In this document: positions 6,066-21,610 of the stretch, one piece after another
Numbering within the stretch: position 1 is the stretch's first letter
How the letters are laid out: every line of letters starts with the position of its first letter
Virus record (IMG/VR): IMGVR_UViG_3300044655_000021
Coordinates: 1-22,949 of that record
Source: a virus
DNA length: 22,949 bases
Strand: one strand, 5' to 3'
The notes under the pieces: model-generated
What the model was told of the DNA's origin: nothing
The model's input: the letters and a program-made list of their open reading frames with translations, nothing else
Database searches by the model: none
Translations under genes and position numbers: made by a program

Positions 6066-6364
6066 TCCATCAGGGCGGTAATAGTGGTTATCAAGCGATC
6101 AATCTTGCTTACCTATGGGGGGCAAAGACAATTGTTCTGCTAGGATTGGATTGTTCGCTTTCACCAAAAGGCGAAGCGCATTGGTTTGGTCAGCATGGTG
6201 AAGGATTAACAAATCATCAACCATTCCAGATGTGGCAAGCTAAGTTTCCGCAACTTGCAGTTGATCTGCAAGCTGAAGGTGTTCGAGTAATTAACGCAAG
6301 CAGACAGACAGCCCTGACTTGCTTTGAGCGTATGACGCTTGAGGAAGCAATTAAAGTATGTTGA
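5711..6364 (+). CDS. GPSL-motif protein, DUF115 / sialyltransferase-like; start codon unclear or frameshifted
   Basis: Frame 2 is open from just after a TGA at 5708-5710 to a TGA at 6362-6364. From about 5765 it encodes RWAGRVACIIASGPSLTEED, then ATIAVNDSYRRAPFAD and LYACDEQWW, and later HQGGNSGYQAINLAYLWGAK and TIVLLGLDCSLSPKGEAHWF. An early G-P-S-L loop, a middle NSGxxA helix and a VLLGLD strand are the marks of the DUF115 (Maf) and GT42 sialyltransferase-like group of Rossmann-type enzymes that use or make sugar nucleotides. No ATG, GTG, TTG or CTG occurs in frame between the stop and the GPSL motif; the first TTG is at 6146, deep inside the fold. Translation therefore needs a -1 frame change from the 5583 frame, a rare ATC or ATT start, or a missing base in the sequence. 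The end overlaps the next gene by 7 bases. Confidence 0.75.
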   Translation, partial: NSKPSSGDRQISSYDRTAGRWAGRVACIIASGPSLTEEDCNIVGDQGWATIAVNDSYRRAPFADCLYACDEQWWRVHFERVKSEYEGECWTQDEGAAKRYKINRIGSEYKEGLGTNGVIHQGGNSGYQAINLAYLWGAKTIVLLGLDCSLSPKGEAHWFGQHGEGLTNHQPFQMWQAKFPQLAVDLQAEGVRVINASRQTALTCFERMTLEEAIKVC

Positions 6365-7077
6365 CCTTATTGACAGCTACTGGTGCAAGACCGAAGGCGT
6401 GGGCTATCTGCGAACTGTGGATGGCTCGGCAGACTTACAGAGGAGATGTTCGTTGGATTATTGTTGATGATGGTGAGGTTGCACAGCCAATCACATTCAG
6501 CAAAAAGAAATGGACATTAGAAGTAATCAGACCTAATCCATTCTGGCAAGAAGGTATGAATACGCAAGCGCGTAATCTTCGGGCGGGTATGGATGTTGTT
6601 GGTGCAGATGAAAGAGTTGTATTCATTGAGGATGACGATTGGTATGCGGCTGATTGGCTCGAGACAATTGATAAGAAGTTTGAGAAAGCTGAGTTAATTG
6701 GTGAGGCTAATGCTCGCTATTACAACTTGCCTCAGAAATCTTATCGACCAATGTTCAATACTTTGCACAGCAGTCTTTGCTCATCTGCTATTCGAGGTCA
6801 GGCATTAGATACATTCAGATCAGTATGCAGAGCGCAGATTAAATTTATTGATGTATTGCTATGGCAAGCGCATGGTGACAATCATTTGTTTAGTGGTGAT
6901 CGTGTTCTTGGTATCAAGGGCATGGAAGGTCGCGGTGGCATTGGAGTTGGTCACGCAAAAGAATTCCGTGGAACAAAGGATGTTGGCGGTAAAATTTTGA
7001 AATCGTGGATTGGTGATGATGCTTTGGTTTATAAGCCAGAGGAAAAATTAAATGACGCAATTAGTTCGGAAAATTAA
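6358..7077 (+). CDS. Glycosyltransferase family 2-like protein (GT-A)
   Basis: The 239-aa protein opens with a beta strand (LTLLTATGARP) and shows a nucleotide-binding WIIVDDGE segment at residues 33-40 and a metal-binding DXD-type motif in VVFIEDDDWYAADW at 87-100. An NTQARNLRAG helix lies between them. These features fit a small GT-A fold transferase that moves a sugar from a nucleotide donor. No membrane segment is visible, so it should be cytoplasmic. GAGGAAG at 6341-6347 serves as ribosome site, and the ATG overlaps the stop of the GPSL gene, so the two are coupled. The 3' end overlaps the connector gene by 26 bases. The acceptor cannot be told from sequence; a virion protein or host surface glycan are the candidates. 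Confidence 0.82.
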   Translation: MLTLLTATGARPKAWAICELWMARQTYRGDVRWIIVDDGEVAQPITFSKKKWTLEVIRPNPFWQEGMNTQARNLRAGMDVVGADERVVFIEDDDWYAADWLETIDKKFEKAELIGEANARYYNLPQKSYRPMFNTLHSSLCSSAIRGQALDTFRSVCRAQIKFIDVLLWQAHGDNHLFSGDRVLGIKGMEGRGGIGVGHAKEFRGTKDVGGKILKSWIGDDALVYKPEEKLNDAISSEN

Positions 7078-18549: not shown

Positions 18550-18768
18550 ATGACTTCAACAGTTAATGAAGCCATAGTCACCAAAGCCGCAACAGCCGCC
18601 ACTTATGGCGGTTCAGGAGTAGCCGTAATATTTGGCTTAACAGCCAATGAGTTCGCGGCTATCTCTGGCGTTGTGATTGCTTTGGTTGGTCTATTGGTAA
18701 ACGTCTACTTCAAGCATCAGCACTTGAAGCTCGCGAGAGAATCAGCGAAAGCTGACGAACAAGAGTAA
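18550..18768 (+). CDS. Holin (two-segment, class II-like)
   Basis: The 72-aa protein has two hydrophobic segments, about residues 17-31 (ATYGGSGVAVIFGLT) and 34-55 (FAAISGVVIALVGLLVNVYF), and a charged C-terminal tail (KLARESAKADEQE). This is the layout of small class II holins such as those of the HP1/P21-type group. It would form the hole or depolarise the inner membrane at lysis time, releasing or activating the endolysin encoded about 2.2 kb downstream. The stop overlaps the next tiny gene (TAATG). The short distance to other lysis genes supports the call. Confidence 0.82.
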   Translation: MTSTVNEAIVTKAATAATYGGSGVAVIFGLTANEFAAISGVVIALVGLLVNVYFKHQHLKLARESAKADEQE

Positions 18769-18860
18769 TGGAAGATTGGGCTGTCGCTTTCCTTGCGGCA
18801 GTCACATTAGTCGCCACTATTCTGTGGTGCGTCTCAATTTTTATTTGGTACTGGACGTGA
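18768..18860 (+). CDS. 30-aa single-segment membrane protein
   Basis: ATG at 18768 overlaps the holin stop by one base, and the frame runs to a TGA at 18858-18860. The product starts MEDWAVAFLAAVTLVATILW, then CVSIFIWYWT, so nearly the whole chain is one membrane helix with an acidic N-terminus. The stop overlaps the GTG of the next gene (GTGA), which supports real coding. A holin partner or antiholin is possible, but no homolog was recognised. Confidence 0.6.
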   Translation: MEDWAVAFLAAVTLVATILWCVSIFIWYWT

Positions 18861-18982
18861 GTTTACTTACGTTTGTAATACTCGCGTCAATAGAATATCG
18901 CTGTGTCCGATGGACATGGATTGGTGATGTTTATAACCGCAGAGTAATTTGCCTTGAGTGGAAGAAGGTAGAACGGAAATGA
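18857..18982 (+). CDS. 41-aa conserved-looking phage protein, GTG start
   Basis: GTG at 18857 overlaps the previous stop (GTGA), and the stop overlaps the next ATG (ATGA). The product has a short hydrophobic start (SLLTFVILASIEYRC) followed by a Trp/Arg-rich part, WTWIGDVYNRRVICLEWKKV. I recall W-T-W-x-G-D-V-Y-N-R-x-V-x-C-L-x-W as a recurrent pattern in environmental phages; function unknown. A longer version from TTG 18776 is less likely because of the coupling at 18857. Confidence 0.65.
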   Translation: MSLLTFVILASIEYRCVRWTWIGDVYNRRVICLEWKKVERK

Positions 18983-19473
18983 TTGATCCGATGACAGCCC
19001 TTGCGGGAATACAGTCGGCTATCTCGATGGTCAAGAAGGCTAGTGCGGTGGCGAACGATCTTGGGTCTTTAGCCCCAATGATTGGAAAGTTATTTGACGC
19101 TAAGTCAACCGCCACTAAAGCCCTGATTGAAACGAAGAAGTCCAAAGGTTCCAATATGGGAACTGCTCTTCAGATTGAGATGGCTTTGGAACAAGCTCGA
19201 GCATTTGAGGAAGAATTAAAAATGCTCTTTATGACCACAGGCAAGATTGATGTGTGGAATAAAATTAAAGCTCGGCAAGATCAGATGGACATTGATGATG
19301 CTAGAGAGCTTCGCGCATTAGAGAGAGCAGAAAAGAAAGCCAAAGAAAAAGAAGCAGAATTAAATGAGTTGGCTGTGATTCTTGGAGTCTCTGCGTTTGT
19401 TCTGTTCTTAGTGGTAATCGGCATCTATGAGTTGATGGAGTTCTGTCAACAAACAAGAAGGTGTGGTCGGTGA
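18979..19473 (+). CDS. Membrane-anchored coiled-coil protein, unknown role
   Basis: The 164-aa product begins MIDPMTALAGIQSAISMVKK, has a central helical region with a long Glu/Lys/Ala stretch (ELRALERAEKKAKEKEAELN), and a C-terminal membrane segment at about residues 131-151 (LGVSAFVLFLVVIGIYELM). ATG 18979 was chosen over GTG 18958 because it overlaps the previous stop as ATGA. Proteins starting MIDPxTA with a C-terminal membrane helix are, in my recollection, widespread in uncultured marine phages and still unassigned. Its place between holin and spanins suggests an envelope role. Confidence 0.75.
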   Translation: MIDPMTALAGIQSAISMVKKASAVANDLGSLAPMIGKLFDAKSTATKALIETKKSKGSNMGTALQIEMALEQARAFEEELKMLFMTTGKIDVWNKIKARQDQMDIDDARELRALERAEKKAKEKEAELNELAVILGVSAFVLFLVVIGIYELMEFCQQTRRCGR

Positions 19474-19625
19474 ATGAATATCAAAAGACCTTTGACTTAT
19501 GCTTGAAGATTTTTTGCTATGGGTGCGTGGCTTTATATGCGCTCGGCTTTTTGAAATTCCTTCCTGATGATCTTAGCGATAAGATCGTTAATTTATTTTT
19601 GGGTCGCATAGGATTAGGCAAATGA
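19470..19625 (+). CDS. 51-aa membrane protein, GTG start
   Basis: GTG at 19470 overlaps the previous stop (GTGA). The frame encodes MNEYQKTFDLCLKIFCYGCV, a hydrophobic helix through about residue 31 (ALYALGFLKFL), then an amphipathic tail (DDLSDKIVNLFLGRIG). Three Cys residues lie in or next to the helix. The TGA overlaps the ATG of the next gene. The start-stop overlaps on both sides make it a real member of this cassette. Function unknown. Confidence 0.62.
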   Translation: MNEYQKTFDLCLKIFCYGCVALYALGFLKFLPDDLSDKIVNLFLGRIGLGK

Positions 19626-19798
19626 AAATATCTGCTTATCAGCAAAATGCTAAGATGCAATGGGAAGTTCAGAGACTTACCCATCAGCAGAACATGGAAC
19701 ATTTAGCGAAGCTGAACCGACAAGCTGACCAACAGCAGAAGGTTCAAGATATCAAATCACATTGGGTCAAGGTCAATCAAGTGGATGTAATGGCATGA
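19622..19798 (+). CDS. 58-aa Gln-rich soluble protein
   Basis: ATG at 19622 overlaps the previous stop (ATGA), and the stop overlaps the lipoprotein ATG. The product starts MKISAYQQNAKMQWEVQRLT and is rich in Gln, His and Lys throughout, probably one long helix with no membrane segment. No family was recognised. Confidence 0.6.
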   Translation: MKISAYQQNAKMQWEVQRLTHQQNMEHLAKLNRQADQQQKVQDIKSHWVKVNQVDVMA

Positions 19799-20001
19799 GA
19801 TATATTCTGCTTCTGCTTTTACTTACTGGATGCAAAGATGTTTATCGATATCCATGTCAGAACCCTGATAACTTTATCTTGCCTGAATGTCAGAAGCCGA
19901 AGTGCTTGTTTACTCAGCAATGTCCTGAATACTTAGTCGCCCCAATCTTGGAAAAGAAAGTAACAGATGTCCAACAGCCAGAAGCCAAAGCTAACAACTG
20001 A
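19795..20001 (+). CDS. Cys-rich phage lipoprotein
   Basis: The 68-aa product has a short signal sequence and lipobox, MRYILLLLLLTGC, with the lipid-bearing Cys at residue 13. The mature part carries four more Cys (21, 32, 37, 43) in a KDVYRYPCQNP...PEC...PKC...QQC pattern, which could form two disulfides in the periplasm. I recall this KDVYRYPC-type lipoprotein as common in environmental phages, function unknown. ATG 19795 overlaps the previous stop and places the lipobox at the correct distance; an upstream in-frame TTG at 19762 would bury it. The 3' end overlaps the next gene by 35 bases. Confidence 0.78.
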   Translation: MRYILLLLLLTGCKDVYRYPCQNPDNFILPECQKPKCLFTQQCPEYLVAPILEKKVTDVQQPEAKANN

Positions 20002-20509
20002 AGAATTTGAAGTTCGGGTCTGGGGCTTTGTGGTCATGGTGGTCACTTGCATCTTGTGCGTCATTGTCATTGCCCTTTTGTATTCTGTGACCTTCGTGAC
20101 ACAGCCAATCAAGAGCATGGCTCCAATTGACCAAGCCTATACCAAGATGCTCAACGACATTGTTCTGTTGATCGTTGGCGGCATCGGTGGGGTAATGACA
20201 AAGAGGGCGGCAGGGGCGGCTTCTAGGGCGTTCAATCCTACGCAACCATCCCAACCTATGTGTCAGCCGTATCAAGGGCAAGGAGGGGGTTTTAACCAAC
20301 CTTACAATTCTGGCTTCAGCCAAGCCTATAACCCGCCTTCGGCTTATGGGGGCTTACCAAGTCAGCCATTCGGTGCTATGCCAGTATTCGTCAATCCGCA
20401 ACTGGATGAAAACTGGACACCGCCACCGCCACCAGATACCCCGCCTGAACATTTGGAATCAGATGCAGATCGGGAAGTTATCGCTCTAGCAAGAACTGAG
20501 GCTGACTAA
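19967..20509 (+). CDS. Two-segment membrane protein with proline-rich tail
   Basis: The 180-aa product begins with a short charged segment (KPKLTTEEFEVRVWG), followed by a membrane helix at about 20-45 (VVMVVTCILCVIVIALLYSV) and a second one at about 64-78 (DIVLLIVGGIGGVMT). The remaining 100 residues are Pro, Gln and Gly rich (QPSQPMCQPYQGQGGGFNQP, later PPPPPDTPPEHLE). The first part resembles a short membrane protein found next to the Cys-rich lipoprotein in other environmental phages by memory; the long tail looks like an extra addition. It may span or press on the cell wall during lysis. Its stop overlaps the spanin ATG (TAATG). Confidence 0.72.
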   Translation: MSNSQKPKLTTEEFEVRVWGFVVMVVTCILCVIVIALLYSVTFVTQPIKSMAPIDQAYTKMLNDIVLLIVGGIGGVMTKRAAGAASRAFNPTQPSQPMCQPYQGQGGGFNQPYNSGFSQAYNPPSAYGGLPSQPFGAMPVFVNPQLDENWTPPPPPDTPPEHLESDADREVIALARTEAD

Positions 20510-21009
20510 TGTTTCCAATTCCTTTGCCTTGGCTTATCGTCGGAGTGATTGTTTCCTTGTTCGGAACTTATCAAGTTGGCCATCATTACGGATGGCTTGA
20601 GCGAGACAATGACATGAAGATTGCCATTGCAAAAAAGAATGAGGAAGCAAGGGCGACTGAGCAGAAGCTCAGTGAACAGATAAACACTAACGCAACTAAA
20701 TTATTGGAGGCAAACAATGTCCTTACTCAAAAGCAATCTGCTCTTGATCGCGCTATTCGTTCTGGCAGGGTGCGCCTCCCAACCGCAAGTTGTCAGCAAG
20801 CCGCCTCAAGTCCCGCCATTGCCACCGCAGATAGCAAAGAAACAAGAAGCCAACCTGACGGACAGACTGACACAGCTTCTAATGCCGAGCAAGAAACCCT
20901 TATCGCCATCGCAGAAATAGTCGCGCAGGGTGACAGGAATACTTTGCAACTGAACTCTTGCATCGATGCTTACAATGAAGTTAGGAATCTTTTAAATGGT
21001 AAGTCCTGA
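20509..21009 (+). CDS. Inner-membrane spanin subunit (Rz-like)
   Basis: The 166-aa product has an N-terminal membrane anchor (about residues 6-24, LPWLIVGVIVSLFGTYQVG), then a charged coiled coil (NDMKIAIAKKNEEARATEQK through ALDRAIRSGR), as expected of an i-spanin reaching across the periplasm. The C-terminal part has ETLIAIAEIVAQGDRNTLQL and NSCIDAYNEVR, a pattern often found in Rz proteins. Together with the lipoprotein nested inside it, it should fuse inner and outer membranes in the last step of lysis. Its end overlaps the endolysin by 14 bases. Confidence 0.87.
   Translation: MFPIPLPWLIVGVIVSLFGTYQVGHHYGWLERDNDMKIAIAKKNEEARATEQKLSEQINTNATKLLEANNVLTQKQSALDRAIRSGRVRLPTASCQQAASSPAIATADSKETRSQPDGQTDTASNAEQETLIAIAEIVAQGDRNTLQLNSCIDAYNEVRNLLNGKS
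20717..20920 (+). CDS. Outer-membrane spanin lipoprotein (Rz1-like), nested in Rz
   Basis: This 67-aa frame lies wholly inside the i-spanin gene in the +1 frame. It has a signal sequence and lipobox (NLLLIALFVLAGC, lipid Cys at residue 19) and a mature part that is proline-rich (SKPPQVPPLPPQIAKK), the classic Rz1 form. GGAGG at 20706-20710 lies six bases before the ATG. Nested Rz/Rz1 pairs are known from lambda and relatives, and the close fit makes the call strong. Confidence 0.9.
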   Translation: MSLLKSNLLLIALFVLAGCASQPQVVSKPPQVPPLPPQIAKKQEANLTDRLTQLLMPSKKPLSPSQK

Positions 21010-21610
21010 ACAATTACGCCAACTGAAGATTGAACCATCGTTGGCTGACCCATTCAACGAAACATTTGAACGCTTTGGAATTCTGACTCCAGTTCAGCAA
21101 GCCGCATGGCTCGGACAATGTGGTCATGAGTGCAACAACTTCAGAGTGCTTGAGGAGAATCTGAACTATCGTGCGGCAACTTTGCTGAAGCTCTTTCCAT
21201 TGACAGCAAAACGCGCTTGGGGTTTCACGCCTGAGTCAGCCGCACAGTACGAGCGTCAGCCAGTTAAGATTGCTAATCGCATTTACGGCTCTCGTATGGG
21301 CAACAGGGATGAGGCATCAGGGGATGGGTTCTTGTACCGAGGCTCAGGATTTTTACAATTAACTGGCGCGGCAAATTTTTTTCATGCAGGAAAAGCGTTA
21401 GGCGAAGACTTTGTTCGCAATCCTGATTTGGTTCGTACAGCGAAGTATGCGAGTCTCACCGCAGGATGGTTCTGGCAGACTCACAATCTGAATCAATATG
21501 CCGACAAAGAAGATTGGCTCATGCTGACAAAGCGAATCAATGGCGGCACGATTGGCTTAGAGGACAGGAAGATTCATATTAACCATGCTATTCATGTACT
21601 TGCTAATTGA
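20996..21610 (+). CDS. Endolysin, glycoside hydrolase family 19
   Basis: The 204-aa enzyme should cut peptidoglycan glycan strands. The catalytic acid is E45 in LGQCGHECNNF and the second carboxylate is E54 in LEENLNY. Further family marks are YRGSGFLQLTGAANF near residues 113-127 and KRINGGTIGLEDR near 179-191. No signal peptide or membrane anchor is visible, so export depends on the holin. AGGAA at about 20983-20987 supports the start, which overlaps the i-spanin end by 14 bases. Its last 54 bases overlap a converging gene on the other strand. No cell-wall binding domain is present. Confidence 0.93.
   Translation: MVSPEQLRQLKIEPSLADPFNETFERFGILTPVQQAAWLGQCGHECNNFRVLEENLNYRAATLLKLFPLTAKRAWGFTPESAAQYERQPVKIANRIYGSRMGNRDEASGDGFLYRGSGFLQLTGAANFFHAGKALGEDFVRNPDLVRTAKYASLTAGWFWQTHNLNQYADKEDWLMLTKRINGGTIGLEDRKIHINHAIHVLAN

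Follow-up and report, generated by a model that had tools for sequence, protein, structure and literature searches.

Eight short genes, which begin with an HP1-family holin and are followed by Rz/Rz1 spanins and a GH19 endolysin, belong to a phage cassette which is built from at least two recombining modules, g3-g4-g5 (module A) and g7-g8 (module B). The two members of the second module, a cysteine-rich lipoprotein and a protein with two membrane segments, are almost always found together, in unrelated phages too, and are usually located beside a holin or a GH19 endolysin. The association of the small genes with lysis genes is well supported. We give roughly even credence to the reading that the eight genes are part of a lysis cassette in expanded form, in which g8 would act as a holin-like partner and g7 would regulate it at the outer face of the membrane.

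Layout of the cassette

The window, which means the whole stretch of DNA that was analysed, is a 22.9-kb IMG/VR virus record. It represents a tailed phage whose host was probably a Gram-negative freshwater bacterium. The terminase, portal, protease, capsid and tail genes, assigned by PHROG matches, occupy the left part and are followed by tail-fibre-like genes, two uncharacterised small genes, the cassette, Rz/Rz1 and the GH19 endolysin; to the right of the endolysin the genes are carried by the opposite strand. All eight short frames, a count which includes the holin g1, are present between 18550 and 20509 (Table 1), exactly where the first-pass annotation had put them, and each junction that it had described is found as written: TAATG, GTGA, ATGA, GTGA, ATGA, ATGA and the long overlap, in the order from g1 to g8. 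The g8/Rz junction is TAATG, too. According to hydropathy, from which all topologies given here are derived, a membrane segment or a lipobox is present in the holin, g2, g3 (signal or TM segment), g4, g5, g7 and g8, and neither of the two in g6.

Table 1 Genes of the cassette and of the adjoining spanin and endolysin region
Gene	Product	Position	Strand	Match or feature
g1	class II holin, 72 aa	18550..18768	+	PF16080 HP1 holin, E 4.6e-13; phrog_20 holin, 2.2e-15
g2	30-aa membrane microprotein (MxDWAVAF...IxWxW)	18768..18860	+	hydrophobic 5-19; TAATG junction with holin
g3	41 aa, GTG start; probably exported microprotein	18857..18982	+	CVRWTWxGDVYNRxVxCLEW; invariant C, W, W, C, W (two Cys)
g4	164 aa, MIDPxTA...RCGR	18979..19473	+	phrog_32327, E 2.8e-10; TM 131-149
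g5	51-aa one-segment membrane protein, GTG start	19470..19625	+	
g6	58-aa soluble polar protein, optional	19622..19798	+	
g7	68-aa lipoprotein, lipobox LLTGC	19795..20001	+	four further invariant Cys
g8	180 aa	19967..20509	+	phrog_25359, E 1.5e-8; 35-base overlap with g7
Rz	Rz-like i-spanin	20509..21009	+	phrog_2466, E 2.9e-9
Rz1	Rz1-like o-spanin lipoprotein, nested inside Rz	20717..20920	+	phrog_3198, E 1e-6
GH19	GH19 endolysin	20996..21610	+	PF00182, E 5.5e-9

The holin reaches 49.4 bits with the HP1-type profile PF16080 (curated cut-off 28.8) and the Glyco_hydro_19 domain of the endolysin 36.6 bits (cut-off 25.5); the endolysin possesses neither a signal nor a TM segment. Rz and Rz1 show the arrangement by which spanin pairs are recognised, an i-spanin with an N-terminal TM segment and a nested Pro-rich lipoprotein. 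No Pfam family was found for g2 to g8 and no function is described for them in the libraries searched, in line with the earlier statement that the set has no known job. g5 has no PHROG family either, and since the PHROGs of g4 (phrog_32327) and g8 (phrog_25359) are without a described function, these memberships explain nothing.

A scan for promoters and terminators gave fewer promoter-like sites than shuffled sequences and no more terminator-like sites than expected. A search for the host via prophages, in which the g4 profile was run against genomes, resulted in a single weak match on a Maricaulis MAG contig. Between the capsid and tail genes, an unusual position, a frame of 239 aa (6358-7077) resembles a glycosyltransferase-type protein; it has no PHROG match.

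Conservation and selection

The set recurs in environmental phages, as the first-pass annotation had supposed: more than 150 relatives were collected from IMG/VR, with g4 and g5 in 152-156 loci and some contigs giving two. Either g4 or g8 served as the bait for collecting these loci, which were ranked by their similarity to it and are not fully independent; their frequencies therefore describe the relatives of the baits and not all phages. The proposed synteny comparison revealed a gene order that is kept in more than 100 of these metagenomic loci. g3 and g5 were found in 148 and 156 loci, respectively, g2 in 93 and g6 in 67, the latter being absent from about half of the relatives.

The stops or frameshifts which the first-pass annotation had named as grounds for refutation were not found in the small frames, which are open and ordered in the relatives; none of the unique homologues of any cassette gene contains an in-frame stop. 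The alternative frames are nearly always closed, with the 30-aa g2 and the nested Rz1 as exceptions. Of 19 internal stops flagged at first in g2, g5 and g7, the seven that were inspected proved to be tblastn alignments overrunning the true stop. The median dN/dS is 0.19 for g3, 0.07 for g4, 0.06 for g5, 0.09 for g6, 0.09 for g7 and 0.12 for g8, values which are comparable to the endolysin (0.09) or below the spanins (Rz 0.26, Rz1 0.33); the holin has 0.22. A median of 0.40 indicates weak constraint on g2. Judged by these comparisons all eight frames are genes, and purifying selection is clear in all except g2.

Overlaps of one or four bases are kept in unique sequences at g3/g4 (103/114), g4/g5 (95/109), g5/g6 (38/38), g6/g7 (44/44) and g8/Rz (82/82), whereas at g2/g3 just 20 of 60 retain it. 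Of 43 sequences that lack g6, 42 have a four-base stop/start overlap of the same kind between g5 and g7. Within this genome short overlaps occur at seven of the eight junctions inside the cassette versus five of 20 outside (Fisher p = 0.004); they are thus denser in the cassette, yet also a genome-wide habit. The kept overlaps suggest a maintained translational coupling, from which neither a fixed stoichiometry nor equal amounts follow.

Modules and exchangeable positions

It had been suggested that the cassette encodes one complex of fixed stoichiometry. This idea is not supported: the slot before g2/g3 varies, g6 is optional, and g3-g5 and g7-g8 are separable from each other, so that a single obligate complex of eight parts is excluded. 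The slot before g2/g3 is occupied by the HP1 holin (13 loci) or by a one-segment protein of either of two unrelated kinds (43 and 30 loci), or has nothing recognised in it; the three types are mutually exclusive. Representatives of both one-segment clusters matched neither XhlA (PF10779) nor any other Pfam family at E 0.1. The near-constant core g3-g4-g5 comes next, in a few loci placed after the endolysin. It is followed by g6-g7-g8-Rz-Rz1-GH19 in 114 loci, or alternatively by a 3TM-type protein with a T4-type lysozyme (16 loci) or a DUF4337 protein (10 loci); in one locus of the last kind (L055) a LydA-like protein matching the holin family phrog_3427 comes after the DUF4337 protein. The core occurs without g7-g8 and g7-g8 without g3-g5, and both modules combine with different holins and endolysins.

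For the proteins that may replace g6-g8 after g5, the assignment as holins is based partly on resemblance. The 3TM-type proteins match only the uncharacterised family phrog_6637, and the labels 'GTA 3TM holin' and 'XhlA-like' were not confirmed by Pfam and are no proof of holin identity. A role of g8 as a strict substitute for the 3TM-type protein was considered, as the two were never seen together at first, and was rejected after two loci (L279/L280) turned out to carry both.

DUF4337 (PF14235, E 1.1e-32 at L055:6656-7204) recurs after g4/g5 in other loci as well, together with LydA-like or 3TM-type proteins. In L080, at about 6.2-8.4 kb and past g3-g4-g5 and a DUF4337-like protein, IscU/IscA-like frames and an apparent UDP-diacylglucosamine hydrolase are found; either the contig is from a phage that carries host-like genes, or a prophage or assembly boundary lies here.

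The g7-g8 pair

For g7 neither a PHROG nor a Pfam family was found. Its alignments are characterised by the motif YRYxCQxPxNFx4CxxPxCxxTxxC, in which four cysteines are kept besides the lipid one, and in larger phages a membrane segment takes the place of the lipobox. The conserved cysteines fit an oxidising, external location. A structural model gave a small irregular domain (pTM 0.33) and was not used. g8 has two N-terminal membrane segments, the second of them weak and Gly-rich, and a Pro-rich tail; in the alignment both segments are kept around a short loop with the motif FVTQP...D, and the PHROG match covers this two-segment region (residues 7-85). The window g8 has no holin match in Pfam or PHROG, one distant g8 matches the holin family phrog_9987 weakly (E 0.074), and the HHalign probability between g8 and each of the holin-like families found here is at most 18%.

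Of the 81 loci in the divergent g8 set, 78 have g7 upstream of g8 and 69 have a GH19 endolysin in the vicinity. In a set of 239 g8 loci, which were not de-duplicated by contig, the numbers are 236 and 211. The recognised holin family adjoining the pair is of the HP1 type in 14 loci and of the LydA type in three. A clear g8 homologue in MW202675.1 (L162:3013-3282), which has a four-base overlap with the g7 gene, is unannotated in the GenBank record.

A tblastn search of INPHARED with the window g7 led to further weak matches, among them phage DSL-LC01, where an r1t-like holin candidate, g7 and g8 follow one another. DSL-LC01 was judged to be an actinobacteriophage by its authors on the basis of WhiB genes and host prediction (PMC10611076). 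One WhiB gene lies near the pair (PF02467, 3.6e-12), and the host is probably a monoderm member of the Actinobacteria. Among 80 IMG/VR relatives of the DSL-LC01 g8, both g7 and g8 are present in 73; an r1t-type holin-like protein, which matches the holin family phrog_443 (E 6.4e-6), is found in 51, all of them with g7 and g8. The WhiB pattern occurs in 5/80 of these loci versus 0/157 control loci. The nearest annotated cell-wall enzymes of DSL-LC01 are about 6-8 kb away from the pair. Given the pairing with g8 in phages of probable monoderm hosts and the separate Rz1 in the window, it is unlikely that g7 is simply a second outer-membrane o-spanin.

The membrane protein of 80-100 aa just upstream of g7-g8 in DSL-LC01 (L163:3630-3932) and its relatives (L331-L410) has its best match in phrog_26427, labelled 'nuclease', and matches phrog_443 holin too; the 'nuclease' label looks like a misannotation.

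Proposed role and alternatives

Among the three roles that had been suggested for the cassette, lysis control suits the data best. The cassette is framed by the holin, Rz/Rz1 and GH19. Several lines of evidence speak for lysis control: the holin, spanin and GH19 families, the conserved order and overlaps, purifying selection, the swapping of slots, the g7-g8 pairing and the lysozyme or peptidase genes next to most distant g4 relatives of cultured phages. It is weakened by the fact that neighbourhood is not function and that late operons may also harbour accessory genes for superinfection exclusion, as well as by the lack of a profile match between g8 and holins and by the distance of the DSL-LC01 pair from cell-wall enzymes. 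The mechanism assigned to g8 and g7 is inferred. The cassette would be translated late as a coupled series and supply two holin-like components, g8 and the slot-1 protein, the latter being the HP1 holin in the window and a one-segment protein in other loci. g8, with its predicted N-in/C-in topology, would depolarise or open the inner membrane together with the slot-1 protein. g7 may reside on the outer face of the inner membrane or in the periplasm, where it would bind the short external loop of g8 and set the time of triggering. g4, g5 and g3 may form a second accessory unit reaching from the cytoplasm to the periplasm, which would affect holin assembly or endolysin release. More tentatively, g7-g8 may be an unrecognised two-component envelope device which controls lysis alongside several unrelated holin families in phages of both diderm and monoderm hosts.

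g7-g8 could also prevent a second phage from entering or inhibit the lysozyme of its tail, for which Sp and Imm of T4 and the Cor/Llp-type lipoproteins are precedents of exclusion or envelope protection. A small Cys-rich lipoprotein together with a small two-segment protein has the anatomy expected of such a system, the pair moves between unrelated phages as one unit, and in many loci it is added to a recognised holin instead of replacing one. However, the overlaps tie it to the spanin genes here, it adjoins GH19 or a holin in most loci, and it has no match in PADLOC-DB, a library of anti-phage defence systems. The coupling to lysis genes also implies that the pair is probably made late, when exclusion would be of little use, and we consider this explanation unlikely. 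The same holds for the proposal that g8 acts as the principal holin under regulation by the slot-1 protein, loci without HP1 relying on g8 alone for holes. Most loci with a one-segment slot-1 protein indeed have no recognised holin besides the g8 candidate, the two-segment N-in/C-in layout given by hydropathy would suit a holin, and g8 is rarely combined with the 3TM type (2 of the 40 loci having this type). On the other hand, it coexists with HP1, r1t-like and LydA-like holins and, in the two loci mentioned above, with the 3TM-type protein, and it shows no homology to holins.

It seems improbable that small accessory genes with no relation to each other have loosely piled up in a late intergenic region, their overlaps reflecting genome compaction only. 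The overlaps outside the cassette, the optional g6 and the weakly constrained g2 would agree with such a pile-up; strong purifying selection, the order kept in so many loci, a stop/start overlap that persists with or without g6 and the near-obligate pairing of g7 and g8 do not. Least probable of all is that g4, g5 or g8 are packaged virion or DNA-entry components acting at the inner membrane during ejection. The genes come after the tail-fibre region and the g4 family has a wide distribution among marine phages, but the papers searched give no virion evidence and the coupling is to the spanins and the endolysin, not to tail genes.

Comparison with known lysis systems

The main elements in models of lysis by phages of Gram-negative hosts are holin, antiholin, endolysin and spanins. 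The classic cassette of this kind, with an HP1-family holin, Rz/Rz1 and GH19, has the same late cluster of holin, spanins and endolysin; unlike it, the widespread group of freshwater phages described here adds seven conserved small coupled genes, mostly for membrane proteins, between holin and spanins. If g7-g8 regulates lysis, a shared control layer is missing from current models and annotation, and one that recurs in phages of probable monoderm hosts.

In T4, the periplasmic antiholin RI gates the inner-membrane holin T. The logic proposed for g8 and g7 is similar: a periplasmic protein would gate a lysis protein of the inner membrane. The proposed likeness is one of logic; in build, g7 is a four-Cys lipoprotein and g8 has two segments with a short external loop. 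A genetic precedent for two-component holin-like systems exists in mycobacteriophages, where the timing of lysis is affected by both LysF1a and LysF1b of F1, one of which has two segments in an N-in/C-in layout and the other one segment (PMC13056207). The cassettes described here likewise combine a two-segment and a one-segment protein, a likeness of layout; in contrast to g7-g8, no lipoprotein partner is described for LysF1a/LysF1b. Furthermore, multi-holin cassettes are known from Gordonia phages, an organisation which according to the authors was not previously described for Gram-negative hosts (PMC9671378). Many small and diverse membrane proteins are exchanged between those cassettes as they are here, although the Gordonia phages have Gram-positive hosts.

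The g4 superfamily

g4 matches its PHROG profile over the full length (residues 1-153). Its AlphaFold2 model (mean pLDDT 72.8) comprises three helices (4-24, 28-54 and 60-87) and one long helix (90-158) running into the membrane anchor, so the protein is predicted to be a helical bundle with a C-terminal membrane anchor and a Cys-containing tail. In the PDB just generic three-helix bundles were found by fold search, with a best Z of 11 that is below the telling level for helical bundles, and in a viral library uncharacterised phage proteins, mostly of uncultured Caudovirales. The profiles of g4 and g7 gave no sequence match in the PDB. By tblastn against INPHARED the window g4 and g8 detected uncultured Manatee Spring phages only, and g5 had no match.

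More distant members, which share the motif MxDPxTAxxxAxxAxxxxKKGxxxGRELxxM..., are present in uncultured phages with g7-g8 and in the cultured phages HMO-2011 (gp60), several Roseobacter CRP phages and Limnohabitans phage DC31. They are connected to the window family by an HHalign probability of 99.3% (E 4e-20). Most of the cultured-phage relatives adjoin a lysozyme or peptidase gene; in HMO-2011, CRP-1 and DC31 a gene for a lysozyme, endolysin or peptidase follows the g4-family gene within about 1-2 kb. For DC31 an endolysin is annotated and a holin is not (PMC12195039). The g4 family is directly testable in the cultured phages DC31, HMO-2011 and CRP-1.

A further protein, which has two segments and carries an EF-hand-like DxDxDG motif at its N terminus, adjoins endolysin or g7-g8 genes in CRP-1 (gp56, L323:3712-4041), DC31 (gp112, L325:3485-3823) and two other loci (L218 and L230). 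CRP-1 gp56 matches the uncharacterised family phrog_27150, and the protein is possibly a calcium-responsive holin-like protein.
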